64,000 bases of DNA from positions 2,239,501-2,303,500 of the forward strand of contig NZ_CP015583.1 of the NCBI RefSeq assembly GCF_001941945.1, read 5' to 3'. The notes below the pieces were generated by a model. It searched no databases, was not told the DNA's origin, and saw nothing but the letters and a program-made list of their open reading frames with translations. Origin of the DNA: Roseomonas gilardii (GTDB taxonomy: Bacteria; Pseudomonadota; Alphaproteobacteria; Acetobacterales; Acetobacteraceae). Shown here piece after piece: positions 12,362-26,517 of this stretch. The position numbers and the translations under genes are program-made. Position 1 is the first letter of the stretch. Each line of letters begins with the position of its first letter.

Positions 12362-13102
12362 TCAGACGTGCTGCCCGCCGTTGATGTGGATCTCCGCCCC
12401 GTTGATGTAGGAGGAGGCCTGGGAGCAGAGGAAGAGGATGGTCTCCGCCACCTCCCGCGCCTCGCCCAGCCGGCGCATCGGGATCTGTTCCTCGACGATC
12501 TTCTCCGTGCCGGGGGAAAGGATGCTGGTGCGGATCTCGCCCGGGGCGATGGCGTTCACGCGGATGCCATGGGCGCCGAACTCATGCGCCATCTCCCGCG
12601 TCAGGGCGTTCAGCGCCGCCTTGGAACAGGCATAGGCAGGCCCGGCGAAGGGATGCACGCGCGAGCCGACGATCGAGGTGACGTTGACGATGTTGCCGCC
12701 CGCCACGTGCAGTTCCTCGAACAGCCCGCGCGCCAGCAGGGCGATGGAGAAGAGGTTGACGTTGAAGACCGCGTTCCAGGCGGCATAGTCCGTCTGCATC
12801 ACCCCCATGCGGCCACCGCCCGGCCCCTTGGGGGAGATGCCGGCATTGTTCACCAGCGCATGCAGCCGCCCGTCCGGCAGGCGCTGCTTCACCAGGGCGA
12901 TCAGCTCGCCCACCTGCACCGGGTCGGAGAGATCGGCCTGGAGATGGCTTTCCCGCGCCTCGGGCCAGCGGCATTCCTCGGAGAAGGGCTGCCGCGACAC
13001 GGTGAGGATGCGCCAGCCTTCCTCCTGGAAGCGCTTGACCGTGGCGTGGCCGATTCCCCGGCTGGCGCCGGTCAGCAGCATGGTCTTGCGGGTGGTGGAC
13101 AT
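12362..13102 (-). CDS. SDR family NAD(P)-dependent oxidoreductase
   Basis: The 246-residue product is a classical short-chain dehydrogenase. The cofactor loop TGASRGIG is at 11-18, NNAG follows in LVNNAGIS, and the catalytic set is present as a Ser in NVTSIVGS and YACSK with Tyr and Lys. The C-terminus has the common INGAEIHINGGQHV ending. The ATG at 13102 was chosen because the cofactor loop begins ten residues later. The substrate is unknown; SDRs of this subgroup reduce keto groups of sugars, acyl chains or alcohols. It stands between the LprI-like gene and the dehydrogenase on the same strand, with 100-base gaps on both sides, so it may be monocistronic. Confidence 0.88.
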   Translation of the reverse strand: MSTTRKTMLLTGASRGIGHATVKRFQEEGWRILTVSRQPFSEECRWPEARESHLQADLSDPVQVGELIALVKQRLPDGRLHALVNNAGISPKGPGGGRMGVMQTDYAAWNAVFNVNLFSIALLARGLFEELHVAGGNIVNVTSIVGSRVHPFAGPAYACSKAALNALTREMAHEFGAHGIRVNAIAPGEIRTSILSPGTEKIVEEQIPMRRLGEAREVAETILFLCSQASSYINGAEIHINGGQHV

Positions 13103-13209
13103 GCGGGCCCCCTCGGTGCGGCGCACCATCTCTAGAACATTTCCGGTTCCCTGGCCCTGGCCGCGAGGACTCTTGCGCTCCTCGCCGCAGCGGCGCGCCC
13201 CCGGCGGCG

Positions 13210-14040
13210 CTAGCGCCCGGACGGGGAGCGCTGGGAGGGCGAGCGCCGGGACGGACGGTCGCAATCGACCTGCATGGCGGTCTCCGGCCCGAAGACGCCC
13301 GGCGCGTTGCCCTGCCGCGAGCCCGGCGGAAACACCGTCGTTCCATAGAGCACGGCGCCATGGCCCGCCATGCGCTCGCAGCGTGCGCCTTCCTCGGTGG
13401 CGACCGCATAGGCCCCCTCGGCCGTTCGCCGGATCGTCACCACGCAACGTTCCGCCGGGTCGCGGGAGCGCATGCCCGATTCGAAGCGCCAGACCGCCTC
13501 CGGATGCGAGGCGCCCTGGGGAGCCGCCGGCCTGGCGAGCCCGTCCACGGAGAAGTTGCTGCCCCGGCTGGTCCAGGAGCTGAGGACGAAGTCCAGGCCA
13601 CCGCCCGCCCCACTCCGGAGGAGCAGCATGTCCATGCTCGTTCCCGCGCCGAAATTGCAGTACTTCCCGTCCACAGTGCCCCCGGCGGCCGGAGCGGGCA
13701 CCGGGCCGGCTCTCTTCGCCCCCGGAGGCGCGGAGAGCGCCGCGACCCGCTGCTCATAGGCCGCCCTGACGCAGTCCTCCGTGCGGCAGCGGTTGCGCCC
13801 GGCCAACCATTCGCGTTGCGCGGCCTGCAATCCCGGCGCGCCGCCCTGGCGGGCGGACAGGAAGGCGGCCGCCATCTCCTCGTCGAGCCGGGAAAGCCCG
13901 CTGTCGCGGCAGATCATCCGCTCCATGTCGGAGCCCGCCCTGGCGCAGTCGAAACTGGCGGCCTCCGCCTCCGGGGATGGCAGGGCGGACAGGGCGAGGC
14001 ACAGCAGCGGCAGCAGGAGCCGGAGACACGCAGGGGTCAT
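13210..14040 (-). CDS. Secreted LprI-like (DUF1311) protein
   Basis: The 276-residue product starts with a clear signal peptide (CLRLLLPLLCLALSALPSPEAEA), so it is exported to the periplasm. Residues 29-95 match the DUF1311 / LprI pattern: FDCARAGSDMERMICRD, then LDEEMAAAF, then an AQREWLAGRNRC segment and a further Cys in EDCVRAAY. LprI in mycobacteria inhibits lysozyme, but most DUF1311 proteins have no proven role. The rest (about 110-276) holds YCNFGAGTSMDM and two more Cys, with a basic RRSPSQRS end, and is not recognised. It is an isolated leftward gene between the glycan operon and the SDR. Confidence 0.75.
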   Translation of the reverse strand: MTPACLRLLLPLLCLALSALPSPEAEAASFDCARAGSDMERMICRDSGLSRLDEEMAAAFLSARQGGAPGLQAAQREWLAGRNRCRTEDCVRAAYEQRVAALSAPPGAKRAGPVPAPAAGGTVDGKYCNFGAGTSMDMLLLRSGAGGGLDFVLSSWTSRGSNFSVDGLARPAAPQGASHPEAVWRFESGMRSRDPAERCVVTIRRTAEGAYAVATEEGARCERMAGHGAVLYGTTVFPPGSRQGNAPGVFGPETAMQVDCDRPSRRSPSQRSPSGR

Positions 14041-14117
14041 GGTCGCTCTCCCGGGGATGCGGCCCCGGTGCCGCCACGCGGCACCGGGCCTGCCCGGAAG
14101 CTAGGCCATCCCGGCGG

Positions 14118-14144
14118 CCGGCGTGGTGACCGAAAGCACGCCGG
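14118..14144 (-). terminator. Hairpin at the end of the leftward glycan operon
   Basis: CCGGCGTG (14118-14125) and CACGCCGG (14137-14144) form a perfect 8-base stem about 45 bases after the stop of the DUF115 gene. It is the likely end of the 21125-14190 transcript. The flank has no strong U tract. Confidence 0.45.
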
Positions 14145-14189
14145 GATTTCGTTCCGGCATCATTTTCATGTTCCCGGCGCCCCTCCGGC

Positions 14190-15380
14190 TCAGAACAGGC
14201 TCTCGAAGCCCACCTTCGGGAAGGCGTCGAGATGCGTGCCCGGCGTGGCGTTCAGCACCTCCACCCCGTTCGCCGCACCCCAAAGGTTGCAGTAGCTGTA
14301 GCAGACCTCCGACCAGGCGGTGCGCGGCGGCACGAAGATGCGGTTGCTGGTGTAGTTGTTGGTGAAGTGCGTCGGCCCCTGGGCGGTGTTGCCCTCCCAG
14401 AAGTCGAAGCCCAGCCGCGTGCGCTTCACCAGCTCCTCCGGCGGGATATGCGCCGTCGGATTCGGGTCCTGCTCGTCCTGGCCGCGACGCCGCACCTTGG
14501 CGATCGGATAGGAGTGGTCCACGCCCACCAGCACGATCGGGTTGCAGCCCATCATGGCGGCGATCTGGATCAGCACGATCGTCACGGTGAAGCTGTTGAA
14601 CAGCATCGCCGGCGTTTCCCCGAACTGTGGGAAGTTCAGGATCTGCTCGCCCGCCACGATCTCGCCCGGCATCGGCACCGGCACCTGGTTGGGCATGCGC
14701 AGGAAGCCGAGATACTCGAAGGGGATGAACTTGATGGATTCCGCATCCATCCCCGCCTCGTATTCCTCGCGGTACATCTCGATCTGCAGCCGGTCCGAGA
14801 TGGCCCAGTAGGGGAAGGCGAGCCCCCAGTCGGCATAGCCCATGAAGGAGCGGTTGGAGCCGAGGGCGATCTCCCCCTTCAGCCGCCCCATGTCGATCTG
14901 CCGCAGGCTGGGGCCGTTGCCGACCACGAAGGCACGCTTGCCGGCATGGCGGTTGCGGAAGGTGTCCAGCAGCAGCGGCACCTCGATCCGCAGCTCCCGC
15001 GTCCGGCCCAGGAAGTGGAAACGCCGGGCGCCCAGCGCATGCATCACCCGCACCGCCGGATAGCGGTCGTTCCAGGCGGGCTGCTCTTCGCCGCTGAGGA
15101 AGACCATGGACATGCGCGCGGGCTCGCTGAGGATCACCGCCTCCCGCGCCCCCACCGCCCCGAGCAGCGGGCGCAGACGCAGCGCCTCCGGCCGGTCCGG
15201 CGAGTCCGGGATGGCGTGGTGCGCCAGCCCGTGGCGCCGCGCGATGCCGGCGGCGATCGGCGCGTCCTCCTCGTCGGACAGGATGACCGGCGCACCGCCG
15301 CCGAAGAGGCGGTTCGGCGTCGCGCGCAGCCATTCCTCGGCCAGGTCGGCATCCGCCGCGTTCACATGGACGAAGCTCAT
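14190..15380 (-). CDS. DUF115 (MptE-like) protein, paralogue 2; candidate Maf-like glycosyltransferase
   Basis: The 396-residue product has an N-terminal half of unknown fold and a DUF115 / MptE-like domain that begins with AFVVGNGPSLRQID at about 150-163 and continues through LGSNRSFMGY and NPIVLVGVDHSYP near 290. The GNGPSL turn and the VGVDHSYP strand are the features shared with bacterial Maf proteins, which attach nonulosonic acids to flagellin. This copy shares the GNGPS and aromatic-rich C-terminal pattern with paralogue 1 but has a different N-terminus. Its ATG overlaps the stop of the upstream gene (ATGA). It is the last gene of the leftward glycan operon. A role in adding sugars to protein or lipid is inferred. 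Confidence 0.75.
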   Translation of the reverse strand: MSFVHVNAADADLAEEWLRATPNRLFGGGAPVILSDEEDAPIAAGIARRHGLAHHAIPDSPDRPEALRLRPLLGAVGAREAVILSEPARMSMVFLSGEEQPAWNDRYPAVRVMHALGARRFHFLGRTRELRIEVPLLLDTFRNRHAGKRAFVVGNGPSLRQIDMGRLKGEIALGSNRSFMGYADWGLAFPYWAISDRLQIEMYREEYEAGMDAESIKFIPFEYLGFLRMPNQVPVPMPGEIVAGEQILNFPQFGETPAMLFNSFTVTIVLIQIAAMMGCNPIVLVGVDHSYPIAKVRRRGQDEQDPNPTAHIPPEELVKRTRLGFDFWEGNTAQGPTHFTNNYTSNRIFVPPRTAWSEVCYSYCNLWGAANGVEVLNATPGTHLDAFPKVGFESLF

Positions 15381-16108
15381 GCCGCCACCTTCGCCTTCTC
15401 CTTGCCCGTGGGTCGGGCCTCGGGGGGTTTCTTCGCCGGCTCCGCCCCGGCCTCGGGCGCCACGGGCTTCGGCTCGGCCGCTGCGGCCGCCTTAGGGGTC
15501 CCGGCAGGCTTCGCGGGTTTTTCCGCCGTCACGGGTTCTGCTCCGGCCTTGGGAACAGCGGGTTTCGGCTCCGCAGCCTTCGCGGTGCCGGCAACCGGTC
15601 CGGGCTTCGCGTCAGCCACAGAAGCGGCAGGCTCCGTCTTCTCCGCCGGCTTGCCGCCTACCGGGGCCAGCGGCCGGTCCACGGCCAGCAGCAGCGGTCC
15701 GGCGAGGCGGGTGCCGTCCGGATGCGGCAGGCTGCGGGTCAGGCGCAGTTCCAGCCGGCCTGCCCCCGCTCCTTCCAGCGGAGCCTCAAGCGCCACCACG
15801 TCGTCCAGTCCGGCGAATTCCGCCGGAACCGGTACGGGACGCAGCGCCAGCGGCTTGCCCTCCAGCGTCGCGGACAGCGTGCCGAAGGGCGACAGGTCGG
15901 CGGGCGCGAGGAGCAGGCGGAGTCGGCCGACCGGCCCCTCCACCGGCGGCAGGGTCAGCAGGGCCGCCGGGGCCGGGCCGATCCGGCGCGACGGCAGGCC
16001 CTGGAGGAACTCCACCTCCCAGAAGCCGGACAGGGTCAGGTTCTCGCGCAGCAGGATACGGCGCGCCTCCGCCGCATGGGCCAGCGCGACGGGAAGCAGG
16101 GCGTTCAT
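15377..16108 (-). CDS. Hypothetical protein with Pro/Ala/Lys-rich tail, glycan operon
   Basis: The 243-residue product was not recognised. Residues 1-140 have alternating hydrophobic strands (NLTLSGFWEVEFLQG, RLRLLLAP) that resemble a small beta-sandwich. From about 150 to the end the sequence is a low-complexity tail of repeated A-E-P-K, K-P-A and P-E-A units, likely disordered and positively charged. No signal peptide or membrane helix is seen. Overlaps of four bases with both neighbours tie it to the glycosyltransferase and the DUF115 protein, so a scaffold or accessory role in glycan transfer is possible. The tail resembles TonB-like or wall-spanning linkers in composition only. Confidence 0.6.
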   Translation of the reverse strand: MNALLPVALAHAAEARRILLRENLTLSGFWEVEFLQGLPSRRIGPAPAALLTLPPVEGPVGRLRLLLAPADLSPFGTLSATLEGKPLALRPVPVPAEFAGLDDVVALEAPLEGAGAGRLELRLTRSLPHPDGTRLAGPLLLAVDRPLAPVGGKPAEKTEPAASVADAKPGPVAGTAKAAEPKPAVPKAGAEPVTAEKPAKPAGTPKAAAAAEPKPVAPEAGAEPAKKPPEARPTGKEKAKVAA

Positions 16109-19100
16109 GCGGCCTCCGCGGTGGAGAGGGAGAGGGGCTCGGCCGCGTCCCGACCCGCCCGCGCGGGCTCGATGCCCTCCAGCGCCGCATAGGGATCGCC
16201 CGGCGGGACGGGGACCGGCAGCGTGCCGGAGGCCAGTTCCTTGGGCGTCACCAGCGGCCAGGGGCTGCCTGTCGCGGAAGCGCCGGCCAGGGCCAGCACG
16301 GGGACGCCCCGCGCCGCCATGGCGCCGCAGAAGGGCGCGACGCCCCCCGCCGGGGCAAGGTCCACCACGGCCCGGACCGTCGCGGGCGCCAGCAGCAGCG
16401 CGGAGGCCACCCAGGCGACCGGCAGGTCACGCGGCAGGCCGAGCCGGGCGCGAAGGGCCTCGGCGGGCTCCAGCGGCGGCGCATCCACCACGCAGAGCAG
16501 CGACAGCCCCGCCTTGCGCAGCGGCGTGGCAAGGCGTGACAGGGCGTCGCGCAGCACGGCGGGTTCGGCCAGGGTGGCGTCGAGCAGCAGCCACGGCCCC
16601 TCCCCCGGCCCTTCCGGCGGCGTCATGCCGGGCAGGGTCAGGGCGCGCAGCAGGCCCGGCCCGTCCAGGCCGATCACCCCAGGCCCGGGTTGCAGGCCGA
16701 AGCCCAGCCGCCCGGCCCGGAAGGTGCCCAGCTCCGCGCCCGGCAGCAGGGTGGTGGCGCGCAGCCCGTCCGGGATGGCACTGCGCCGCTTGGCGCCGCG
16801 CATGATCACGCGGCCCAGCCCCGGCTCGGCCGCGAGCAGCGCCAGGCTGTGCGCCAGCGCGTCCTCGCCGGGATGCAGGTCGTTCACCAGCAGCAGCCCG
16901 TCACAGAGTTCCTGCCAGCGCGGCAGGTCCGGGGTGAAGCCGTGCGGGTTGCCGTGCAGCAGCAGCAGCAGCGGCCCGCGCCGGCGCAGTTCGGCCAGCA
17001 GCGCCCGCTCCGCCGCGCCGCGCAGGTGATCGAGGGTCGCGCCCTTCTCGATCACCACCAGGGTCGCGTCGGAGCCGGCCTCCTCCAGCAGGCCGGGTGG
17101 CAGCCAGGCGAGGTCGGCGCCGTAGCGCGCGCCCTTGCCACGACGCATCCGCGCCGGCGCGGTGGTGATCGCATGCGCCACCTCCCCGCCCCGGATGAAC
17201 TCCACCCGAACCTCCTCCCCCGGCAGGTTCGGCGCCCGGCCGTTCAGGGCGAAGCCGGAATAGGCGTCGCCATAGGCCCGGTTCTTGTTGTGCAGGCCGG
17301 TCTGCAACCGGTCCGGCAGGGTCTCGCCAAGCAGCTCGCCGTCGAGCAGCACGCGGATCGCCTCCATGCGGGGGCGGGACAGGACATGGCCCTCCACCTC
17401 CAGCACGCCGTACTCGTCGAGGGCGACGCGCTTGAGCTCGGCCAGGATCGGCAGGCTGGTCGGGTCCTCGCCCTGCGCGAGATGCGGCTCCACCGCTCCC
17501 GGCGCCGCCTTCTCCCACTTCGCCGGCAAGGCCTGCACCGCGACGCCGGCACGGCTGTAGCCGACCAGGGTGAAGGCGCCCGCCGCCTCCAGCATCCAGC
17601 TTTCCTCGGGGCCGAGATGGGCGCTGAAGCCCGGCGTCTGCTGCGGGAAGCCTTCCAGCTTGCCCATCACATCGGGCCGCGCCCGGCCGCCCTGCATCCA
17701 GACCCGGCGCGGCCCGGCGAAGCCTTCCAGCAGGAAGGGCACGGGCGCCCCGGCGGCCCAGCCATGCACCAGGCTGCTGCCGGATTCGCGCAGGAACTTC
17801 ATGCCGCCGCTGCGCCACCAGCTCGGCGGCTTGGCCGGCCGTGCCTTGGCCAGCTCCACCAGGTCATAGACCCGCGTGGCATGGTCCAGCACCTCGCCCG
17901 AGGCGGAAAGCACCACGGCGCTGACCTGCACCGCATGGCCCATGGCGACATGCGGGCGGACCAGCCCGAAGCCGCACTCGTCCGTGCCGATCCAGGGATT
18001 CTCCTTGAGCACGTCCTTGCGCACCATGCCGCGCACCGCCTCGCCGAGCAGCTCGCCATCGGCGCGCAGCACCACGCGCGCATCGGGCGGCGCGGCGGCC
18101 CAGCCCTTGATCTCCAGCAGCCAGCCCGGATGCATCACCGCCGCGCCCAGGTTGAGGCGCTTGGGCTCCGGCCGCTTCGGCAGCTTCGCCGGCACCGCGA
18201 TCACCGGCTTCGGCGGCAATGGCCTGGCCAGGAAGCTCTCCAGCGCGGCCAGCGCCGCCTGGCCGCAGCGCTCGACGGAAGAGACCGCCTCCACCACCTG
18301 CGGCAGGTGCGCCCAGTCCTCCGGCGAGGACTTCATCACCCGCAGCACGCCCTCGCGCAGCTTCGCCACGTCGCCCACGGGGGCGGTGATCAGCGCGTCG
18401 CCGCAAACCTCCTTCACCACGTCCAGGTCGTAGCAGACGCAGGGCGTGCCCACGGTCAGCGCCTCGATCGGCGGCAGGCCATAGCCCTCGAACCAGGAGG
18501 GATAGAGCAGCATCCGCGCCCGCCGCAGCTCGACGAATTTCTGCGTGTCGCTGGCCAGCGGATGCACCTCGACCTCGACGCCATAGCGGCGCGCCACCGG
18601 CACCAGCGCGTCGCGATAGGCCTCGTCCAGCTTCGGGCTGCCGACGATCAGCGACAGCGTCCAGCCGCGCATCTCCTCGCAGAGCACGTCGATCAGGTCG
18701 CCCGCGCCCTTGTGCGGGTCGCGCGGCCGCACGAAGCTCAGGATGCGCTTCTCGCGGTACTGCACCGCCGCCCGCGCCGCCGCGTCGAGGTTGATCGGCT
18801 GGTGCCAGTGGCCGAATTCCAGCCGTTCGTCATCGTACCAGAGGCGCGCGTACTTCTCGGATTCGCGGGAATTGCTGAGGATCAGCACGCCGTTCTCGGC
18901 GACATCCTCGGTGGCCAGCTTCCATTCGCGCCACAGCACCTCGTCGCGCGGCACCGGCACGGCGGCGTTGAACCAGTTCGGCGTCTCGAAGTTGAAGATG
19001 CACATCCGCGCCCCGCGCCGCTGCGCGAAGCCGCGCGCGCCGACATAGACCATGCGGTCCAGCGACTGCGTCGGGATCAGCACCACCACGTCGAAGCGCC

Positions 19101-19317
19101 CTTCCGGCAGTGCCGTCAGGAAGTCCTTGGTGACATGGATACCGATCTTGCCCGGCCGCCCGAAGGCGTGCAGGTCCTCGTGGAAGACGGGGACGTGGTT
19201 GGTGACGAAGGCCACCTCGGCCCCGGCGCGCGCGAGGCACTGCGCCAGCACATAGGCCGCGAGCCGGCCGCCGCCGTAGTTGCCGGGGGCGTTGGTGACG
19301 AAGATCGCGACCCGCAT
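16105..19317 (-). CDS. Large GT4-type glycosyltransferase with three internal beta modules
   Basis: The 1070-residue product has a GT-B glycosyltransferase at 1-365: MRVAIFVTNAPGNYGGG opens the N-lobe, FVRPRDPHKG starts the C-lobe near 195, and PSWFEGYGLPPIEAL (273-287) is the GT4 nucleotide-sugar motif with its second Glu. Residues 392-480, 517-600 and 636-720 are three related modules, each with a G-W/H-x turn, a hydrophobic strand with a Leu/Gly pair, then a DV or LQ segment and a GF/SGF turn. Residues 730-1070 form a Rossmann-like region of unknown role. The long upstream frame to 20205 is a shadow of the neighbour; the ATG at 19317 overlaps the upstream stop as ATGA. The predicted role is sugar transfer in surface glycan assembly. 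Confidence 0.82.
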   Translation of the reverse strand: MRVAIFVTNAPGNYGGGRLAAYVLAQCLARAGAEVAFVTNHVPVFHEDLHAFGRPGKIGIHVTKDFLTALPEGRFDVVVLIPTQSLDRMVYVGARGFAQRRGARMCIFNFETPNWFNAAVPVPRDEVLWREWKLATEDVAENGVLILSNSRESEKYARLWYDDERLEFGHWHQPINLDAAARAAVQYREKRILSFVRPRDPHKGAGDLIDVLCEEMRGWTLSLIVGSPKLDEAYRDALVPVARRYGVEVEVHPLASDTQKFVELRRARMLLYPSWFEGYGLPPIEALTVGTPCVCYDLDVVKEVCGDALITAPVGDVAKLREGVLRVMKSSPEDWAHLPQVVEAVSSVERCGQAALAALESFLARPLPPKPVIAVPAKLPKRPEPKRLNLGAAVMHPGWLLEIKGWAAAPPDARVVLRADGELLGEAVRGMVRKDVLKENPWIGTDECGFGLVRPHVAMGHAVQVSAVVLSASGEVLDHATRVYDLVELAKARPAKPPSWWRSGGMKFLRESGSSLVHGWAAGAPVPFLLEGFAGPRRVWMQGGRARPDVMGKLEGFPQQTPGFSAHLGPEESWMLEAAGAFTLVGYSRAGVAVQALPAKWEKAAPGAVEPHLAQGEDPTSLPILAELKRVALDEYGVLEVEGHVLSRPRMEAIRVLLDGELLGETLPDRLQTGLHNKNRAYGDAYSGFALNGRAPNLPGEEVRVEFIRGGEVAHAITTAPARMRRGKGARYGADLAWLPPGLLEEAGSDATLVVIEKGATLDHLRGAAERALLAELRRRGPLLLLLHGNPHGFTPDLPRWQELCDGLLLVNDLHPGEDALAHSLALLAAEPGLGRVIMRGAKRRSAIPDGLRATTLLPGAELGTFRAGRLGFGLQPGPGVIGLDGPGLLRALTLPGMTPPEGPGEGPWLLLDATLAEPAVLRDALSRLATPLRKAGLSLLCVVDAPPLEPAEALRARLGLPRDLPVAWVASALLLAPATVRAVVDLAPAGGVAPFCGAMAARGVPVLALAGASATGSPWPLVTPKELASGTLPVPVPPGDPYAALEGIEPARAGRDAAEPLSLSTAEAA

Positions 19318-21125
19318 CAGGCGGCCCTCCTCCGATCGCGTGCGATGACCCGGATGCCCTCCGCCTCCAGCCGACGGAGCGCGGGGGCCAGGGCGGCCTC
19401 CTCGGCCGGCGGGATGGCCAGGCGCAGCGACACGCAGCCGGCATGCAGCACGAAGGCCAGCAGCGGCAGCAGCCGGAACGGCAGGCCCGGCGTTCCGGAG
19501 AACAAGGGAGCGGCCAGATCCTCCCCATAGCCGATCGTCGCCCCCATGCCCCGCGCCGGCGGCCTGCCCCAGAAGGCGGGCGCCCGCGCATCGAACAGGC
19601 TGGCGAGGCGTCCCCGGCGCGGATCGCCGGCCCAGCCGAGTTCCACCACATCCGCCTCCAGCCCCGCCTCGCCGCCAGCGAGGAGCACCAGGTCCTCCTC
19701 GCTGGGCGAGGGACGGTACACGGCCGCATCGGCCAGCAGCGCGATCCCGCCTGCCCGGATGCCACGCAGCGCCGCCAGGGCGCGCCGGTCGGCGGTCGAG
19801 GGACCCGGCAGCAGCGGAACGGCTTCCAGCCCCCATTCCTCGACGATGGCGCCGAGCGCCTCCCCCTCCGCGCCGATGGCCGGCACCAGAAGGCGCTCCA
19901 CGCCGTCGCGCATGGCGCGGGCCAGCGGCTTCACGCCGGGCGCCGTGCCGCCGCCCAGGGCATAGAGGCACCCCTGGGCCAGCCTCGAAAGTTCCCCGGT
20001 CAGGGCGTCGCCTTCCGTGCCGTCCACCAGCAGGCCTGTCCGGCCCTTGCCCTCCGGATCGGCGAGGCGCGCCTCCAGCACCAGATGGCGCAGGGCGCGG
20101 TCCAGAGCCTCGGCTGAGGGGCTCGCCATGGGCAGGCCCAGCCCGCGCGCCAGTCCCGTGGCCGGTGCCCCGTCCCGCAGCACGAGGGTCTGCACCTCCG
20201 GACAAAGGCGGGAAAGGCTGGCCCGCAGGGGCTCGGAGGACAGGATGACCCTGATGCCGCGCAGCCTGTCGCGCATCTGCCCCACCAGCTTCTGCCGGTG
20301 CTGCGGGATGTAGATCAGCCGTGGCGCCGTCACCGCCTCGGCGGGCAGCAGGCAGGCGCGCGGGAAAGCCAGCGCGGGCTTGCCGAAGCGTTGCAGCAGT
20401 TGCGGGGTCTCAGCCAGCAGCAGCGCGGGCAAGCGCACACCTTCGGCGGGCTTGGCGATGCGCTGCATCACCTGTTCCAGCGCCGGATCGCCGGGGAACG
20501 GCTCCCACTCGGAGGCCGGCAGGCCACGGGCCGGAACGGCCAGCATCGCCAGATCGAAATGCGCCAGCATCCGAGCCGTGGCGCCGGCGAAGCCCGCGGC
20601 ATCGGAGACCAGCAGGAGCCAGGGGGAATGCCCCTCCCCGCGCAAGCCCCCGGCCAGCGCGCAGAGCCGGTCCCAGCCCGGCCCCTCGGCTTCCGTGGCG
20701 AGGAACAGCACCACCGCACCCGGTCCCTCGCGCAGGGCCGCCATGGCATCGGGGCGGCGGGACACCAGCGCGGGCGACGGGCGGTTCGCGGCCAGCGGTC
20801 CCAGGCAGCCATGCGGACGCAGGACGAGGTCGTGCCGTCCATCCTTCGTGGTGACGGTCAGCACCGGCGTGGCGTCACGCTCCGGCAGATGCAGCCGGGC
20901 CTCGAACTGGCCCCCGCCCAGCGGATGCACCGCCTCCGGTGGACCCTGGCCGGTATCGAGCAGGACGCTCCCGATCTCCGCGGCCGTCACGTTCATCCGC
21001 AATGTGAAGAAGCCGGCCTCGTCGAGGCTGGCCTCGATGACCTGCCCTGGCATGGCTGTATCGGGGCAGCCCTCACCCTCTGAGTCGTAAGTGGTCATGT
21101 CCGGTTGTCGGTGCTCGCGGAACAT
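19317..21125 (-). CDS. Unknown protein, first gene of the leftward glycan operon
   Basis: The product has 602 residues from the ATG at 21125, which lies ten bases after GAAAGG; ATG codons at 21158 and 21098 are alternatives. No family was recognised with confidence. Residues 10-110 look like a beta-rich module (FFTLRMNVTAAEIGSVLL). The remainder alternates hydrophobic strands and helices in Rossmann style (PGAVVLFLATEAEG, LAMLAVPARGLP, RLIYIPQHRQKLVGQ, RGIRVILSSEPLR), resembling the C-terminal region of the adjacent glycosyltransferase, so a diverged GT-B-like enzyme is possible. It has no signal peptide or clear transmembrane helix. The stop overlaps the glycosyltransferase start (ATGA). The function is unknown. 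Confidence 0.6.
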   Translation of the reverse strand: MFREHRQPDMTTYDSEGEGCPDTAMPGQVIEASLDEAGFFTLRMNVTAAEIGSVLLDTGQGPPEAVHPLGGGQFEARLHLPERDATPVLTVTTKDGRHDLVLRPHGCLGPLAANRPSPALVSRRPDAMAALREGPGAVVLFLATEAEGPGWDRLCALAGGLRGEGHSPWLLLVSDAAGFAGATARMLAHFDLAMLAVPARGLPASEWEPFPGDPALEQVMQRIAKPAEGVRLPALLLAETPQLLQRFGKPALAFPRACLLPAEAVTAPRLIYIPQHRQKLVGQMRDRLRGIRVILSSEPLRASLSRLCPEVQTLVLRDGAPATGLARGLGLPMASPSAEALDRALRHLVLEARLADPEGKGRTGLLVDGTEGDALTGELSRLAQGCLYALGGGTAPGVKPLARAMRDGVERLLVPAIGAEGEALGAIVEEWGLEAVPLLPGPSTADRRALAALRGIRAGGIALLADAAVYRPSPSEEDLVLLAGGEAGLEADVVELGWAGDPRRGRLASLFDARAPAFWGRPPARGMGATIGYGEDLAAPLFSGTPGLPFRLLPLLAFVLHAGCVSLRLAIPPAEEAALAPALRRLEAEGIRVIARDRRRAA

Positions 21126-21361
21126 TGAAGTTGCACCTTTCAGCATGCCCACAACCATAGCAAGGGTTAATCATGTGTAACTAAAGAGACGACCGCATAC
21201 TGTGGGTTTGTCTCAACTTATGAGAAGCGTTATAAAGGTTTTACACACTAAATGGTTGTATCATGCAATCTTGCGGTGCAAAATAACCCTTAGTTTACCT
21301 ACCCATGGTTGTCGCCCCCCGGGTCGTCAACCCGGGCAGCCACCAAAAAGGGACTCACCGC
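21126..21361. promoter_or_regulatory. AT-rich divergent control region of the glycan island
   Basis: This stretch separates the two divergent glycan operons and is strikingly AT-rich for the window, especially 21159-21310. ACAACCAT at 21151-21158 recurs inverted as ATGGTTGT at 21254-21261 and 21305-21312. AAGGGTTA (21163-21170) has its complement TAACCCTT at 21286-21293. Just before the Gfo/Idh gene, CCCGGGT (21318-21324) and ACCCGGG (21330-21336) make a stem with a 5-base loop in the 5' leader. The repeats look like binding sites for a shared regulator; no exact sigma-70 promoter is claimed. Confidence 0.55.
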
Positions 21362-22396
21362 ATGAAAGTGGGGATCATCGGCTACGGGAAGATGGGGCAG
21401 ATCCGCGCCACCGCCATCGAAGGCGGACGGCACGCGGAAATCGCCACCGTCTTCGACACGGTACGCCTGCCGGACTGCCCGTATCCCTATGCCGCCTCGG
21501 CCGAGGAGATCATCGCCGACCCCAGCCTCGACGCGGTCTTCGTCTGCACGCCGAACTGGCTGAACCGCCCGCTGACCATCGCCGGGCTGCGCGCGGGCAA
21601 GCACGTGTTCTGCGAGAAGCCGCCCTGCTTCAACGGCACCGAGATGCGCGAGATCATCGGTGTCGAGCGGGAATGCGGCCGGGTGCTGATGTACGGCTTC
21701 AACCATCGCCACCACGGCGCGATCCTGCGCATGAAGGAGATGATCGAGGAGGGCGAGTTCGGCCGGATCCTCTGGATGCGCGGCCGCTACGGCAAGAGCG
21801 TGGACGGCGACTACCTGAAGGGCTGGCGCGCCGACCGGAAGCTCGCCGGCGGCGGCATCCTGCTCGACCAGGGCATCCACATGCTCGACCTGCTGCTGCA
21901 CCTGAACGGGCGCCCGTTCGACGAGGTGCAGGCCATGGTCTCCAACCTCTACTGGAAGACGCCGGGCATCGAGGACAACGTCTTCGCCCTGATGCGCGAC
22001 AGCGCCACGGGCTGCGCGGTCTCCTTCCACTCGACCATGACCCAGTGGCGGCACCTCTTCTCGCTCGAGGTCTTCCTGGAGCGTGGCTACCTCACCCTGA
22101 ACGGCCTCAAGACCTCCTCCGGCACCTATGGCGAGGAAGTCCTGACCATCGCGCGCAACCGCGCCACGGCGCCGGCCGCGAGCTTCGACAGCGAGGAGAA
22201 GATCCACTTCGAGGTGGATGCCTCCTGGCAGCGCGAGGTGGACGCCTTCTTCGAGTCGGTTCGCGCCGGCTCGCCCGTCACCTACGGCTCCTCGGCGCAG
22301 GCGCTGCAGGTGCTCGACCTGATCGACCGCATCTACGCCCATGAACGGCACGAATCCGCCGATCTGCGCGAGATGCTCCTGGGACATGCGGACTGA
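21362..22396 (+). CDS. Gfo/Idh/MocA family sugar dehydrogenase
   Basis: The 344-residue NAD(P)-dependent oxidoreductase is predicted to act on a nucleotide sugar or sugar phosphate in glycan precursor synthesis. The N-terminal Rossmann fold shows VGIIGYGKMGQIR at 3-15, and the conserved catalytic Lys lies in KHVFCEKPPCFNG. The GGGILLDQGIHMLDLLLHL segment carries the family Asp and His. The ATG at 21362 follows a GGGACTCACCGC leader. It is the first gene of a three-gene operon with a SIS isomerase and a cytidylyltransferase, 13 bases before the next start. Related enzymes oxidise or epimerise hexosamines, but the exact substrate cannot be given. Confidence 0.85.
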   Translation: MKVGIIGYGKMGQIRATAIEGGRHAEIATVFDTVRLPDCPYPYAASAEEIIADPSLDAVFVCTPNWLNRPLTIAGLRAGKHVFCEKPPCFNGTEMREIIGVERECGRVLMYGFNHRHHGAILRMKEMIEEGEFGRILWMRGRYGKSVDGDYLKGWRADRKLAGGGILLDQGIHMLDLLLHLNGRPFDEVQAMVSNLYWKTPGIEDNVFALMRDSATGCAVSFHSTMTQWRHLFSLEVFLERGYLTLNGLKTSSGTYGEEVLTIARNRATAPAASFDSEEKIHFEVDASWQREVDAFFESVRAGSPVTYGSSAQALQVLDLIDRIYAHERHESADLREMLLGHAD

Positions 22397-22409
22397 GGGG
22401 AAGAGAGTG

Positions 22410-23006
22410 ATGGACACCAACGTCAAGGACGCCATCGTGACCAATGACTGGCACGGCTGGCTCGAGAACTACTTCCAGCGCTACACGTCGGAGGCCTTCG
22501 ACGAGAAGCACTATCCGGCGCTGATCGCCTTCCGCGATCTCTGCCTCAAGATCCGCGCCAGCAAGAACAAGCTGCTCTTCGCCGGCAACGGCGCCTCGGC
22601 CTCGATCTCCTCGCACGGCGCGGTGGACTTCACCAAGCAGGGCCGCGTCCGCGCGGTGGACTTCAACGAGCCCAACCTGATCACCTGCTTCGCCAACGAC
22701 TACGGCTACGAGAACTGGATCTGGCGCGCCATGGAGCGCTATGCCGATCCGGGCGACGCGGTGGTGCTGATCTCCGTCAGCGGCACCTCGCCGAACGCCG
22801 TGAAGGCCGCCGAATGGGCCCGCAGGAACGACGTCAGCGTCGTCACCTTCACCGGCAAGTCGCCGGAGAACCCGCTGAAGGCGCAGGGCGACATCAACTT
22901 CCACATCCCCTCCGGCGCCTATAACGTGGTCGAGGGCGTGCACAACATCTGGCTGACCACCGTCGTCGACATGCTGGTCGGCGAGGCCGAGTACAGCGTG
23001 GTCTGA
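22410..23006 (+). CDS. SIS domain sugar-phosphate isomerase (GmhA-like)
   Basis: The 198-residue product has one SIS domain of the phosphoheptose isomerase group. The phosphate-binding segment LLFAGNGASASISSHGAVDF and a second Ser/Thr loop ISVSGTSPNAV are intact. GmhA turns sedoheptulose 7-phosphate into D-glycero-D-manno-heptose 7-phosphate, but here the neighbours are a dehydrogenase and a CMP-sugar synthetase, and no heptose kinase is in view. The enzyme may isomerise another ketose phosphate. The ATG at 22410 is preceded by GAGGGGAAGAGAG. Four bases separate its stop from the next ATG. Confidence 0.82.
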   Translation: MDTNVKDAIVTNDWHGWLENYFQRYTSEAFDEKHYPALIAFRDLCLKIRASKNKLLFAGNGASASISSHGAVDFTKQGRVRAVDFNEPNLITCFANDYGYENWIWRAMERYADPGDAVVLISVSGTSPNAVKAAEWARRNDVSVVTFTGKSPENPLKAQGDINFHIPSGAYNVVEGVHNIWLTTVVDMLVGEAEYSVV

Positions 23007-23010
23007 CGCC

Positions 23011-23706
23011 ATGCGCATCCTGGCCATGATCCCTGCCCGCATGGGCAGCCAGCGCCTGAAGCAGAAGAACCTCAAGGAGATCCGTGGCGCGCCGCTGATC
23101 GCGCATGCGATCCGCAAGTGCCAGGAGGCCGGGGTCTTCGACGAGATCTGGGTGAATTCGGAGCATCCGGCCTTCGGGCCGGTGGCGCTGGCCGAAGGCG
23201 CCCGCTTCCACCAGCGTCCGGAGCATCTCGGCTCCAACACCGCGACCTCCGAGCAGTTCGTCGCGGAGTTCCTGGAAAAGCGGACCTGCGACGCGGTGGT
23301 GCAGGTGCACTCCATCGCGCCGCTGCTGACGGCGGAGGAGGTCCGCTCCTTCGTCACCCGGCTGCGCGAGGGGCAGGAGGACGCTCTGATGAGCGTCATC
23401 CACGAGAACCTGGAATGCATGCATCGCGGCGCACCGGTGAACTTCACCCTCGCCGAGAAGACCAACAGCCAGGACCTGCTGCCGGTCGAGCGGATCACCT
23501 GGTCGATCACCGGCTGGCGGCGCGACACCTATCTGGAGGCCTTCGCCGCCGGACGCTGCGCCACCTATTCCGGCCGCATCGGCACCTGGCCCGTGGGCCG
23601 GATGGCCGGGCACGTGATCAAGACGCAAGAGGATTTCGACATCGCCGAGGCGCTCTGGGACACGGTGCACCGTCCCGCCGCCGCCATGGATGCCGCCGCC
23701 GCCTGA
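23011..23706 (+). CDS. Cytidylyltransferase (CMP-sugar synthetase family)
   Basis: The 231-residue product resembles acylneuraminate and KDO cytidylyltransferases, which activate a keto-sugar acid with CTP. The N-terminal ILAMIPARMGSQRLKQKNL contains the CTP-binding A-R-x-G-S-x-R-x-x-x-K-N pattern. VQVHSIAPLLTAEEV sits where P-x-x-P/R-T-A binds the base, although it has IAPLLT instead of the commoner TSPLR. The C-terminus lacks the usual long extension, so the length is near the minimum. As the last gene of the operon with a Gfo/Idh dehydrogenase and a SIS isomerase, it probably makes a CMP-activated sugar for the glycan genes on the other side. The identity of the sugar is unknown. Confidence 0.82.
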   Translation: MRILAMIPARMGSQRLKQKNLKEIRGAPLIAHAIRKCQEAGVFDEIWVNSEHPAFGPVALAEGARFHQRPEHLGSNTATSEQFVAEFLEKRTCDAVVQVHSIAPLLTAEEVRSFVTRLREGQEDALMSVIHENLECMHRGAPVNFTLAEKTNSQDLLPVERITWSITGWRRDTYLEAFAAGRCATYSGRIGTWPVGRMAGHVIKTQEDFDIAEALWDTVHRPAAAMDAAAA

Positions 23707-23729
23707 CGGCGCGGCGCATCGCCTGACAG

Positions 23730-23761
23730 GAAGCGCCGGGAGGGAGACCTCCCGGCGCTTC
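23730..23761. terminator. Strong hairpin terminator between convergent genes
   Basis: GAAGCGCCGGGAGG (23730-23743) pairs perfectly with CCTCCCGGCGCTTC (23748-23761) around a GAGA tetraloop, followed by GTCGTTCC. It lies between the end of the cytidylyltransferase gene and the end of the hydratase gene and can act for both directions. Confidence 0.8.
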
Positions 23762-23772
23762 GTCGTTCCGGC

Positions 23773-24558
23773 TCAGGCCGGAACCCGCATCTCCACCGTA
23801 CCGAAGCGGCCGAAGGAGGCCCGCACCAGCCCGGGGCGCGGCGGCTGCAGGCAGCCGGTGCAGGAACCGGTCAGCACGTACTGCCCCGCCTGGACCGTGT
23901 AGCCACGCGCATTGGCCAGGGCCACGAAAGCCACGGTGGCACCGAAGGGCCCGCCCTCCACCAGCGCCCCGGTGCCAGAGGCCGCCTCGGCCCCGTCGAA
24001 GCTGACCGAGACCCGCAGGTCCAGCAGCTCCTCCGGTGTCCAGTCCGCGACTCCATCCCCGACGATGCCGAGGCCCGAGGCGCCGTTGTCGGCGATCAGC
24101 CCGAAGGCACCGAACTGCCCCAGCGCGGCGAAGCGCGTCTGCGGCACCTCGATCGCGGGATGCACGCCGGTGATCGCCGCCCGCACCTCCTCCGCCGACC
24201 AGGGCGCGCCGCGTGGATCGAGGTCGCGGCCGAATCGGAAGGCGATCTCGCTCTCCACCCCGGCCTGCGGCAAGTCCGACGCGGCAGGCTCGGCACCGGA
24301 GGGCAGAACGCGCTCCGCCGGCAGCACGCCGAAGAAGCCGCGCTCCAGCCCGAAGCCCTCGCGCACCGACTTCACCGTGGCGCCCAGCTTCCAGGCCCCG
24401 ATCCCGCGGATGGTTCCTGCCACCACCGCGTCCTGCACCGCTTCGGCTTCCGCCAGGCTGGCCGGGATCTCGGTTGGCTGCGGCGCCAGGACGGCGCGGT
24501 CGCGCACCGCCGCGATCAGCTTCGCCGCCAGCGCGCGGCGCTCTGCCACATCGCTCAC
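23773..24558 (-). CDS. 2-keto-4-pentenoate hydratase / fumarylacetoacetase-fold protein
   Basis: The 261-residue product has the MhpD-like fold that hydrates 2-hydroxypenta-2,4-dienoate or acts on similar keto acids with a divalent metal. GAWKLGATVKSVREGFGL, GVESEIAFRFGRDL (the metal-binding E-S-E-I-A-F turn), ITGVHPAIEVPQTRF and the late SCTGCLQPPRPG turn follow the family. It ends with RASFGRFGTVEMRV. The ATG at 24558 overlaps the stop of the inositol-phosphatase gene (ATGA), so the two form an operon. Such hydratases often belong to aromatic or homoprotocatechuate pathways, but none is in the window, so the substrate is open. Confidence 0.82.
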   Translation of the reverse strand: MSDVAERRALAAKLIAAVRDRAVLAPQPTEIPASLAEAEAVQDAVVAGTIRGIGAWKLGATVKSVREGFGLERGFFGVLPAERVLPSGAEPAASDLPQAGVESEIAFRFGRDLDPRGAPWSAEEVRAAITGVHPAIEVPQTRFAALGQFGAFGLIADNGASGLGIVGDGVADWTPEELLDLRVSVSFDGAEAASGTGALVEGGPFGATVAFVALANARGYTVQAGQYVLTGSCTGCLQPPRPGLVRASFGRFGTVEMRVPA

Positions 24559-25283
24559 GAGGGTGCCCTCCCCGACACGGCGCGTACATGCATCGGCCCG
24601 CCGACCTCGCCGGCGATGGCGATCTCGCCGCCTGCGGCCTCCACCAGCGCGCAGCCGGCGGCGACGTCATACCAGTTGATGCCTTCCTCCTCGTAGCCAT
24701 CGAAGCGCCCGCAGGCGACCCAGGCCAGGGAGAGCGCGGCACTGCCGATCATGCGGATCTTGGTCCAGCCCTCGAAGCGGCCGATCACCCGCGCCAGACC
24801 CTCGGGCGAATGGTCCGCCTTGGCGGGCAGGCCGGTGGAGAGCACCGCGCGCGGCCGGGCCGGCGGCTCGACCAGCATGCCGTCCTGCCGGAAGCCCAGC
24901 CCCGGGCCGCCCGAGAAGAGCTCGTCGCGGTTGAAGTCATAGATCGCGCCGAGCACCGCCTTGTCATCGCGGCACAGCGCCACCGAGACGCAGCACAGCG
25001 GCACGCCACGGAAGAAGTTCCACGACCCGTCCAGCGGGTCCACCGCCCACCAGGCCTCGCCCGGCGCCGGCTGGCCGCCGATCCAGCCGGCCTCTTCGCT
25101 GAGCACCGGAAAGGGCGCGGCCTCGCGTAGCGCGGCGATGATGAGGGCCTCGGAAGCCTTGTCCTGCTGGAGCTTGATGTCCCGGCCGATGGCGGATTCC
25201 GCCACGCCGCCCCCGGCGCGCAGCAGATCCCGGCTCACCCTTGCGGCCGATTCGGCCAGGGCGAGAGCTGTCAGGTTGTCCAT
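24555..25283 (-). CDS. Inositol monophosphatase family protein
   Basis: The 242-residue product is a Mg-dependent sugar-phosphate or inositol-phosphate phosphatase. The three family sites are present: LSEEAGW (metal Glu), WAVDPLDGSWNF with DPLDG, and NWYDVAAGCALVEAAGG near the C-terminus with the second-metal Asp. Members include SuhB, CysQ and HisN-like enzymes. An ATG at 25283 after GGAG fits the start of the first helix; an upstream ATG at 25301 is possible. Its stop overlaps the next start (ATGA). The gene is divergent from a DUF457 membrane protein. No pathway partner is visible, so histidinol phosphatase or inositol phosphatase are both open. Confidence 0.82.
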   Translation of the reverse strand: MDNLTALALAESAARVSRDLLRAGGGVAESAIGRDIKLQQDKASEALIIAALREAAPFPVLSEEAGWIGGQPAPGEAWWAVDPLDGSWNFFRGVPLCCVSVALCRDDKAVLGAIYDFNRDELFSGGPGLGFRQDGMLVEPPARPRAVLSTGLPAKADHSPEGLARVIGRFEGWTKIRMIGSAALSLAWVACGRFDGYEEEGINWYDVAAGCALVEAAGGEIAIAGEVGGPMHVRAVSGRAPS

Positions 25284-25460
25284 GCGCGCAGTCTGCTCCA
25301 TCGCAGCGCGCAAAGACAGTGTGGAACACGCGGGCACCGGAATCGCATGACCGGGCAGGCCAATTGTACGGTTCCGGTGAAAAACGGTGGGATTCAGCCT
25401 TGTAGAGCGATTCTCTGACACCTAATCTCAAGCAGTTTCAACAAGGACGCAGCCACTGGC

Positions 25461-26072
25461 ATGATGGCGGGGTCGCATATCGCGCTCGGCGCCGCGGCCT
25501 GGCTGGTGGCCGCGCCGAAATTCGGCCTTCCCGCCGTGGATGCCGCCTCGCTCGGCCTCGCCGTGCTCGGTTCCCTGTTGCCGGATATCGACCACCCGAA
25601 ATCCTGGGTCGGCAAGCGAACGCGGCCGCTCTCCAATGTCGTCGGCTGGATCTTCGGCCATCGCGGCATCACCCACTCCGCCCTGGCGGTGGCGGCCTGC
25701 TTCGCGCTGCTGTTGCAGACGGATCTGCCGCGCTGGGTCATGGCACCCCTGCTGGTCGGCTACCTCTCGCATCTGGTGGCGGACCTGCTGACGCCCGGTG
25801 GGCTGCGCCTCGCCTGGCCGCTGAGGGGCACATGGTCCCTGCCCCTCTGCCGCACCGGCTCCGCCTTCGAGCCGCTGGTGGTGGCGCTGATCCTGAGTTG
25901 CGCGGGCTGCGGGACCTTCGGCAAGCCGGATCTTGCATCCGGCTGGCGCGCCGCCGGGCTGTGCCGGGTCTGGCAGGGCTATGACGGCTTCCGCCCCTGT
26001 GCGCCGGAGCGGGAGCAGCGCGCCCATCCTGCGGAGCGGACGCTGGCCGGCCGCTTCGCCAACCGTTCCTGA
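25461..26072 (+). CDS. Inner-membrane DUF457 / YdjM-like metal-dependent hydrolase
   Basis: The 203-residue product shows the DUF457 (YdjM) pattern. It begins MMAGSHIALGAAAWLV, then LGSLLPDIDHPKSWVGKR with the acidic metal site, then WIFGHRGITHSALAVAA with paired His, and further LLVGYLSHLVADLLTPGG. These give four to five membrane segments. The family is called metal-dependent hydrolase, but activities are poorly known; E. coli YdjM is LexA-controlled. The C-terminal third (about 140-203) is Cys/Arg-rich and does not match the family, and may be a degenerate extension. An AAGGA lies about 15 bases before the start. It is divergent from the inositol-phosphatase gene. Confidence 0.75.
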   Translation: MMAGSHIALGAAAWLVAAPKFGLPAVDAASLGLAVLGSLLPDIDHPKSWVGKRTRPLSNVVGWIFGHRGITHSALAVAACFALLLQTDLPRWVMAPLLVGYLSHLVADLLTPGGLRLAWPLRGTWSLPLCRTGSAFEPLVVALILSCAGCGTFGKPDLASGWRAAGLCRVWQGYDGFRPCAPEREQRAHPAERTLAGRFANRS

Positions 26073-26175
26073 AGCAACCCCGCGCGGCGATTCGCGCGGC
26101 GGCCAAACCCTGCCGCGGGGCCGGGCGTTCCAGGGGGTGGAGCGCCGCTCAACCTCCACGCCCGAGGAAGGCCAC

Positions 26176-26517
26176 ATGACGCCACAGCCGCCGAGCATAC
26201 CGAGATCCCCGTGGTGTCGCCTGCCTGGGCTCGCCGCGCTCCTGACGCTTCTTTCCGGGCCGGTCCTGGCACAGGCCCCCTCACCCACGTCACCCGGCAA
26301 TCCCTCCACCCCTGTACCGGCGCCCTCCACTCCCGAGCAGGGCACTTCGCCCGATCGTTCTGCTCCCCTGCCGCGCAGCGGGGTGATCCAGCCGCCCGCG
26401 ACCAGCCGGGTGGACCCCGGGATCCAGACCACCGTCCCCGATCCCCGGCCCAACACCATGCCGGTGATCCCGCCGCCCGGCACGCCCGGCGGGAACCCGC
26501 AGATCCAGCCGCGCTAG
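26176..26517 (+). CDS. Small secreted proline-rich protein
   Basis: The 113-residue product has a signal peptide (LPGLAALLTLLSGPVLAQA) with a clear cleavage site after VLAQA near residue 33. The mature part is almost all Pro, Ser, Thr and Gln, with SPTSPGNPSTPVPAPST and PPPGTPGGNP-type stretches and no Cys, so it is probably disordered and periplasmic. The ATG at 26176 is preceded by GAGGAAGG. No family was recognised. It ends six bases before the flavoprotein gene, so the two may be co-transcribed, but a functional link is not evident. Confidence 0.65.
   Translation: MTPQPPSIPRSPWCRLPGLAALLTLLSGPVLAQAPSPTSPGNPSTPVPAPSTPEQGTSPDRSAPLPRSGVIQPPATSRVDPGIQTTVPDPRPNTMPVIPPPGTPGGNPQIQPR

Follow-up and report, generated by a model that had tools for sequence, protein, structure and literature searches.

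A surface-glycan island of Roseomonas gilardii as a possible local version of a widespread route to activated 2-keto sugar acids without a phosphoenolpyruvate-dependent synthase

How might a bacterium make an activated keto-sugar acid for its surface when no synthase of the NeuB type is found in its genome? The question is raised by a gene island of Roseomonas gilardii within the 64,000-nucleotide stretch analyzed here (assembly GCF_001941945.1, contig NZ_CP015583.1, positions 2,239,501 to 2,303,500 of the forward strand), which we call the window and in which coordinates are given unless another locus is named. In this island a leftward operon (D, C, B and A), two of whose products are putative glycosyltransferases, is divergent from a rightward operon (E, F and G), and two further genes (h and i) follow. 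To our knowledge, the known ulosonic acids depend on a phosphoenolpyruvate (PEP)-dependent synthase of the NeuB or KdsA type. We regard it as plausible, if somewhat short of probable, that the island is the local version of a widespread, uncharacterized pathway by which a nucleotide-activated 2-keto sugar acid (ulosonic acid) is added to a surface glycan without such a synthase. Support is good for the gene set, for its recurrence and for the lack of NeuB, and the product class is likely an activated 2-keto sugar acid; that oxidation rather than PEP condensation forms the keto acid is probable, by reasoning from the precedent of PdxB and SerA discussed below.

The candidate biosynthetic genes are five. 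E (21362-22396, plus strand; the reading frame opens at 21305, the start at 21362 being the likely one by eye) encodes a Gfo/Idh/MocA dehydrogenase (PF01408 and PF22725 above cut-off), and F (22410-23006, plus strand; open from 22341, likely start 22410 by eye) an SIS-domain, sugar-phosphate isomerase-like protein (PF01380 and PF13580 above cut-off). The nearest solved relatives of F are phosphoheptose isomerases, and it falls below the curated gmhA cut-off (62.2 versus 209.45 bits). G (23011-23706, plus strand) is a cytidylyltransferase of the CTP_transf_3 family (PF02348, 82.2 bits). On the minus strand, h (23773-24558) is, by its solved relatives, related to the 2-keto-4-pentenoate hydratases and 4-oxalocrotonate decarboxylases of the fumarylacetoacetate hydrolase (FAH) superfamily, with scores below the cut-offs of TIGR03218 (64.5 bits; cut-off 350.55) and PF01557 (21.6 bits; cut-off 23.9), and i (24555-25421; likely start near 25283 by eye) encodes an inositol-monophosphatase-family (IMPase) phosphatase (PF00459, 126.1 bits). 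The initial annotation had drawn the island from A to G; that core stands, and it omitted h and i, which belong to the island because both recur near G in other genomes, as well as a gene pair at 1904-4362 described below. The island, as delimited by gene content, is thus larger than first drawn.

The recurrence of this set is what carries the argument. A scan of GTDB genomes, based on three aligned G proteins and two short peptide patterns, returned 60 loci, 50 of them (L020-L069) with a G protein at least 40% identical and ten (L070-L079) at 24-30%; since two short patterns found them, the 50 are not a census. They include Acetobacteraceae, Rhodobacteraceae, Methylobacterium, Sphingobium and Solimonas, as well as bins from metagenomes whose titles name Hydrogenedentota, Verrucomicrobia, Pirellulales, Chloroflexi, Aminicenantes and SAR324. 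At E 1e-8 and with 40% of the query covered, the flanks up to 5 kb from G encoded a 2-hydroxyacid dehydrogenase resembling 3-phosphoglycerate dehydrogenase (PGDH) in 45 of the 50 loci, an IMPase in 36, a Gfo/Idh protein in 35, an h-type protein in 28, an SIS protein in 27, a DUF115 protein in 26, the methyltransferase-like MT6 in 22, the GT4 domain of C in seven and a YhcH-type anomerase in six. In the 35 loci whose 5-kb flanks are complete, the corresponding counts were 33, 27, 28, 24, 21, 20, 17, 6 and 2, and 25 of these loci have three or all four of the core genes (Gfo/Idh, SIS, IMPase and dehydrogenase). Fourteen control segments comprised the ten distant-G loci (one of them, L072, of 14.5 kb), two stretches of the window that share 3 kb and two just left of it; they gave two dehydrogenases, one Gfo/Idh protein and none of the other seven neighbors, with a G-type match in six, as expected near KdsB genes. 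The h-type count combines three queries, one a diverged Rhodobacteraceae form that has no Pfam match and matches the same hydratase models of NCBIfam weakly, and window h alone gave 16 of 50; one DUF115 query, a 722-residue Leisingera protein, lies just under the Pfam cut-off. SMP-30-type genes make up a cluster represented in 16 of the 50 loci, one confirmed by PF08450. A sulfotransferase-like gene follows G in L030, L031, L042, L059 and L017 (10294-11559), which suggests a sulfated glycan. The DUF115-type neighbors agree with the surface-glycan context originally proposed. The recurring set is seemingly undescribed: the portion of open-licence PubMed Central text covered holds no description of it, which does not amount to absence from print.

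The initial annotation found no NeuB- or PseI-type synthase in the window and left open whether one lies elsewhere. Elsewhere now seems no answer, as PF03102 has no match anywhere in the 5.41-Mb assembly (completeness 100); the absence is not a window-edge effect, because the whole assembly was searched, and the same search was positive in 9 of 14 control genomes. The R. gilardii genome does have one PF00793 match, KdsA-like by eye, and two CTP_transf_3 matches, one being G and the other a KdsB-like protein that carries QGD and VDTP motifs; the KdsA- and KdsB-like genes both lie outside the island. The finding that would have refuted the initial reading, rightward genes of an ordinary KDO (3-deoxy-D-manno-oct-2-ulosonic acid) or heptose pathway with unlinked glycosyltransferases, was not obtained: KdsA- and KdsB-like genes lie elsewhere, F is below the gmhA cut-off and G below that of PseF (TIGR03584; 76.8 versus 205.7 bits), which is still its nearest NCBIfam model. 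Among the 50 carrier genomes, whose completeness is not stated, PF03102 gave no match in 27, weak matches only in 14 (E 4e-4 to 1e-11) and strong ones in nine. Relatives of NeuB (L093 query) or KdsA (R. gilardii query) were absent from the 50 loci themselves, with one query each, so that distant forms could escape.

G itself combines a familiar predicted fold with a changed active site. The AlphaFold2 model of G (predicted local distance difference test, pLDDT, 92.4) has as its best folds the CMP-NeuAc, CMP-Kdn and CMP-Pse synthetases, the KdsB fold also being common to it, so that in its predicted overall structure G falls in the NeuA/PseF/KdsB class. The N-terminal IPARxGS...KN motif is likewise kept (P8, A9, R10, G12, S13, K19 and N20 in 51 of 51 aligned members, these being the 50 loci minus L068 and L069, plus the window, Sinorhizobium fredii and the Leisingera plasmid). 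L069, with a stop inside G, was excluded from residue tallies, and the aligned sequence of L067 is interrupted by a gap over residues 150-169. The family lacks the magnesium-binding aspartate pair: Val, Ile or Ala at position 202 and K204 occupy these positions in all 51 (V202 and K204 in G itself), an equivalence to NeuA D209/D211 that comes from sequence alignment rather than coordinates, and they are accompanied by Gln98 and His100 in every one of the 51 and by His201 in 49. In Neisseria meningitidis CMP-Neu5Ac synthetase, according to excerpts of one report, the D209A variant had activity too low to measure and D211A a kcat reduced 15,000-fold (PMC2901514). The relatives in L068 and L093, at 36-40% identity, have Asp at both positions; in ten KdsB-like proteins the first is Gly or Glu and the second Asp, and QGDEP is present as well. 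The Lys-type proteins form one clade of 51 (support 0.79), and on sequence grounds G founds a distinct cytidylyltransferase family; it is not simply IspD-like, as the lysine register differs. The proposal that the island makes a cytidine monophosphate (CMP)-activated sugar thus survives in part: the keto-sugar-acid cytidylyltransferase class is upheld by the fold, and a CMP-sugar product of G is not, since the catalytic Asp pair of that class is absent from it.

Individual carriers tie the two operons together and show how the set is arranged. In Rhodovarius crocodyli (L026) the biosynthetic set is followed a few kilobases on by D-C-B-A in the same order (C 44% identical over 98% of its length; A 56% over residues 1-299, where the locus ends; B 41% over 127 residues, 5-131; D 30%, a syntenic gene of 749 residues), and because this run lies beside the G cluster, the operons appear to be linked, as had been supposed from their layout; the run was seen in three genomes only, those of R. 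gilardii, R. mucosa and Rhodovarius. In Humitalea, G and a D-2-hydroxyacid dehydrogenase gene have h and i as divergent neighbors, and E lies downstream of i. S. fredii SMH12 has dehydrogenase, Gfo/Idh, SIS, h-like, IMPase and G genes together with Capsule_synth, ManC-type and GT4 proteins; excerpts of a review of S. fredii (PMC4881576), consulted for glycan structures of carriers, make no mention of SMH12. Leisingera aquaemixtae carries the set (L092, 11505-16606) on a 93-kb plasmid with rfbF nearby, so the set can reside on extrachromosomal elements. In Paenibacillus cellulosilyticus (L093) an S30AE-family (hpf-type) gene and secA flank the run YhcH-G-SIS-dehydrogenase-IMPase-MT6-Gfo/Idh, and the normal Asp site of this G in nearly the same operon argues for a substrate of the same kind. 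The Paenibacillus glycan region with the YhcH-G operon also contains an IspD/TarI-type gene (L093, 8615-9331) that scores above the cut-off of a D-ribitol-5-phosphate cytidylyltransferase model.

From these genes we infer the reactions, their order and the product of a possible route. The SIS protein would isomerize a sugar phosphate and so yield an aldose phosphate, which E would oxidize at C1 to an aldonolactone; this would open, in some loci perhaps with the help of the SMP-30 lactonase-family gene. The PGDH-like 2-hydroxyacid dehydrogenase would then oxidize C2 to give the 2-keto acid, a step for which the window strain would use an unlinked dehydrogenase or a different reaction. The IMPase-family enzyme (i) would remove the phosphate, h could act on the 2-keto acid, perhaps by removing or inverting a hydroxyl, and in some loci the YhcH-type anomerase may set the ring form. 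Finally, G would activate the 2-keto acid with cytidine triphosphate (CTP), and the DUF115 and GT4 proteins would transfer the activated sugar. Less secure than our reading of the island itself, and possible rather than probable, is the wider proposal that several phyla share this as a further ulosonic-acid route, in which two sugar-phosphate oxidations replace PEP condensation and a branch of the CMP-sugar synthetases has its metal site rebuilt around K204, H100 and H201.

Four known systems come closest to the proposed route. With the neuraminic, pseudaminic and legionaminic acid pathways (NeuA/PseF, Maf/DUF115) the island shares the cytidylyltransferase fold, DUF115 neighbors and surface-glycan context, but it differs in that its genome has no NeuB and its G no Mg-binding Asp pair, and it has Gfo/Idh, SIS and IMPase proteins instead, joined in its relatives by the 2-hydroxyacid dehydrogenase. 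The KDO pathway (KdsD, KdsA, KdsC, KdsB) uses an isomerase and a phosphatase and activates a free 2-keto acid as its CMP derivative; the island is alike in its logic of isomerase, phosphatase and CTP activation, whereas no PEP aldolase was found in the set and the KdsA- and KdsB-like genes of the genome are separate from it. PdxB and SerA, of the vitamin B6 and serine pathways, oxidize phosphorylated aldonic acids; the likeness is that a member of the same dehydrogenase superfamily would oxidize a phosphorylated 2-hydroxy acid at C2, and the difference is that the keto acid is aminated there and would be CTP-activated here. The GDP- and ADP-heptose pathways resemble the island in that the SIS protein is nearest GmhA; in addition to the gmhA score of F, they differ in a heptose kinase and a GDP or ADP transferase, neither of which was recognized by eye in the set, no search having been made.

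Several observations weigh against the proposed route. First, a 2-hydroxyacid dehydrogenase is missing from the island both in the window strain and in R. mucosa. With cluster-protein queries at E 1e-10, the window has no relative of the 2-hydroxyacid dehydrogenase, MT6, SMP-30 or YhcH, a single dehydrogenase match being an artefact lying on G; dehydrogenase relatives of 31-34% identity occur in the 38 kb to its left. The genome as a whole has 18 such relatives, of which the one closest to the Humitalea enzyme shares 39% identity with it, and of the eight examined further (best 43% to the Leisingera enzyme) and placed on a tree, none is inside a cluster clade; an ortholog of the clustered enzyme was thus not seen among these eight, the other ten not having been placed. 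An island without the dehydrogenase implies either that an unlinked enzyme serves the C2 oxidation or that Roseomonas makes a different variant. The clustered dehydrogenases (L020-L069, L091, L093) fall into three separate tree groups, as if recruited repeatedly for the same step. Second, 23 carriers do have a NeuB match, all of them, the 14 weak ones included, above the Pfam cut-off, and in Paenibacillus NeuB lies in the same region, beyond the hpf-type gene. Third, SMP-30 and methyltransferase genes are present in only part of the loci; R. gilardii has three SMP-30 family genes, all outside the island. Finally, G lacks the Asp pair needed by CMP-Neu5Ac synthetase and may not carry out the CMP-sugar reaction, and the PGDH-like enzyme could alternatively supply 3-phosphohydroxypyruvate.

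Four other explanations can be set beside this route. Given its altered site, G might not be a CMP-sugar synthetase at all, and might, in the manner of IspD and TarI, convert a phosphorylated acid or polyol to a CDP compound from which a phosphodiester-linked substituent is made; set beside its predicted fold and the normal Asp site of its Paenibacillus relative, we consider this unlikely. Somewhat less likely again is that housekeeping, KdsA-made KDO is modified by E, h and others and that G activates the derivative. The KdsA- and KdsB-like genes of R. gilardii, the KdsB fold common to G and the fit of h to keto-acid chemistry are in keeping with this, but altering finished KDO needs no SIS protein, IMPase or PGDH-like dehydrogenase, no KdsA relative lies within the 50 loci by the one query, and the carriers include a bin titled Chloroflexi, with a relative of the set in Paenibacillus, groups that are not known to carry KDO-type lipopolysaccharide. 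We find it improbable that 3-phosphohydroxypyruvate serves as a three-carbon donor, which h or another enzyme would condense with an aldehyde to a non-deoxy ulosonic acid: PGDH is the best family fit of the clustered dehydrogenase in all three members tested and the family of h works on 2-keto acids, yet no aldolase was recognized by eye in the recurrent clusters, not every one of which was family-searched, h-type genes are near G in only 28 of 50 loci, and a PGDH-like gene is missing from the island of the window. That the pathway is a conventional nonulosonic acid one with a missed NeuB, to which the proximity of G to PseF and the NeuB matches of 23 carriers (nine strong, 14 weak) would point, is very improbable, given that the search, positive in 9 of 14 control genomes, was empty in R. 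gilardii and that 27 carriers have no match; a diverged or frameshifted gene keeps a small probability.

The glycosyltransferase side of the proposed pathway is the leftward operon, all on the minus strand. A (14190-15380; 396 residues) is a DUF115/MptE-like putative glycosyltransferase that passes the PF01973 domain test (40.5 bits, cut-off 34.6; E 3.2e-10) and had no match among solved structures at E 1. B (15377-16108) is a family-less protein of 243 residues with a conserved N-terminal part and a Pro/Ala/Lys-rich tail, and C (16105-19317; 1070 residues) joins an N-terminal GT4 domain, which passes the Glycos_transf_1 test (PF00534, 44.2 bits, cut-off 26.4; E 1.9e-11), to a long uncharacterized C-terminal part. 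D (19317-21125; open from 21158) has 602 residues and no Pfam or NCBIfam match, and its AlphaFold2 model (pLDDT 45.9) is too poor to use. From D to A the genes overlap by 1, 4 and 4 bases. The gap between the operons (21126-21361) is AT-rich, with a GC content of 0.497 in 21100-21399 versus 0.62-0.80 in the remaining 42 bins of 300 bases in 13000-25899; no sigma-70-like site was found in 21000-21450, and no RNA family reached its gathering score in 13000-26500. Open reading frame coordinates, Pfam scores and GC bins therefore bear out the families, overlaps, divergent layout and AT-rich gap initially described. Outside the island, two plus-strand genes are possible partners: an O-antigen-ligase-like gene (1904-3151; PF04932, 40.7 bits, cut-off 31.7) sits directly before a second A-related gene, DUF115b (3136-4362; 39% over 51 residues to A, E 1.1e-7), which by itself matches nothing in Pfam at E 0.01. 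The pair and its order are kept in R. mucosa, and a relative 45% identical to DUF115b is encoded some 10 kb away from the G cluster of Humitalea. The two flagellin genes of the genome are 1.2 Mb from the island.

Within the family the island is sparse. Across 200 genomes of the family, drawn from a larger group, G matched six: R. gilardii itself, R. mucosa (G102) and Humitalea rosea (G005) at 64% or more, and three others at 29-38%. D matched two, and A three, full-length in R. gilardii and R. mucosa and in the third as a weak match to a DUF115b relative. With identities of 74-99%, R. mucosa retains the whole island from A to i, nine genes in all; this and the recurrence of the rightward set in many phyla speak for more than a chance arrangement. 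Of four members of the genus, R. gilardii and R. mucosa have G, D and A, and the other two (G003 and G159) have none of them; to the left of lpxI their genes are arranged so differently from those of R. gilardii that the site of the island is not comparable. E, F and G (21400-23499) have a GC content of 0.62-0.68, mostly below that of the left operon and of the genes to the right, which with the patchy occurrence in the genus hints at acquisition from elsewhere.

In summary, acidic surface sugars can affect contact with hosts and phages, and if the proposed route is true, genomes called negative for sialic-acid-like sugars for want of NeuB may still display ulosonic acids. An operon of generically named genes would gain a function, and the Lys-type site of G would offer a natural variant for testing the mechanism of a long-studied class of nucleotidyltransferases.

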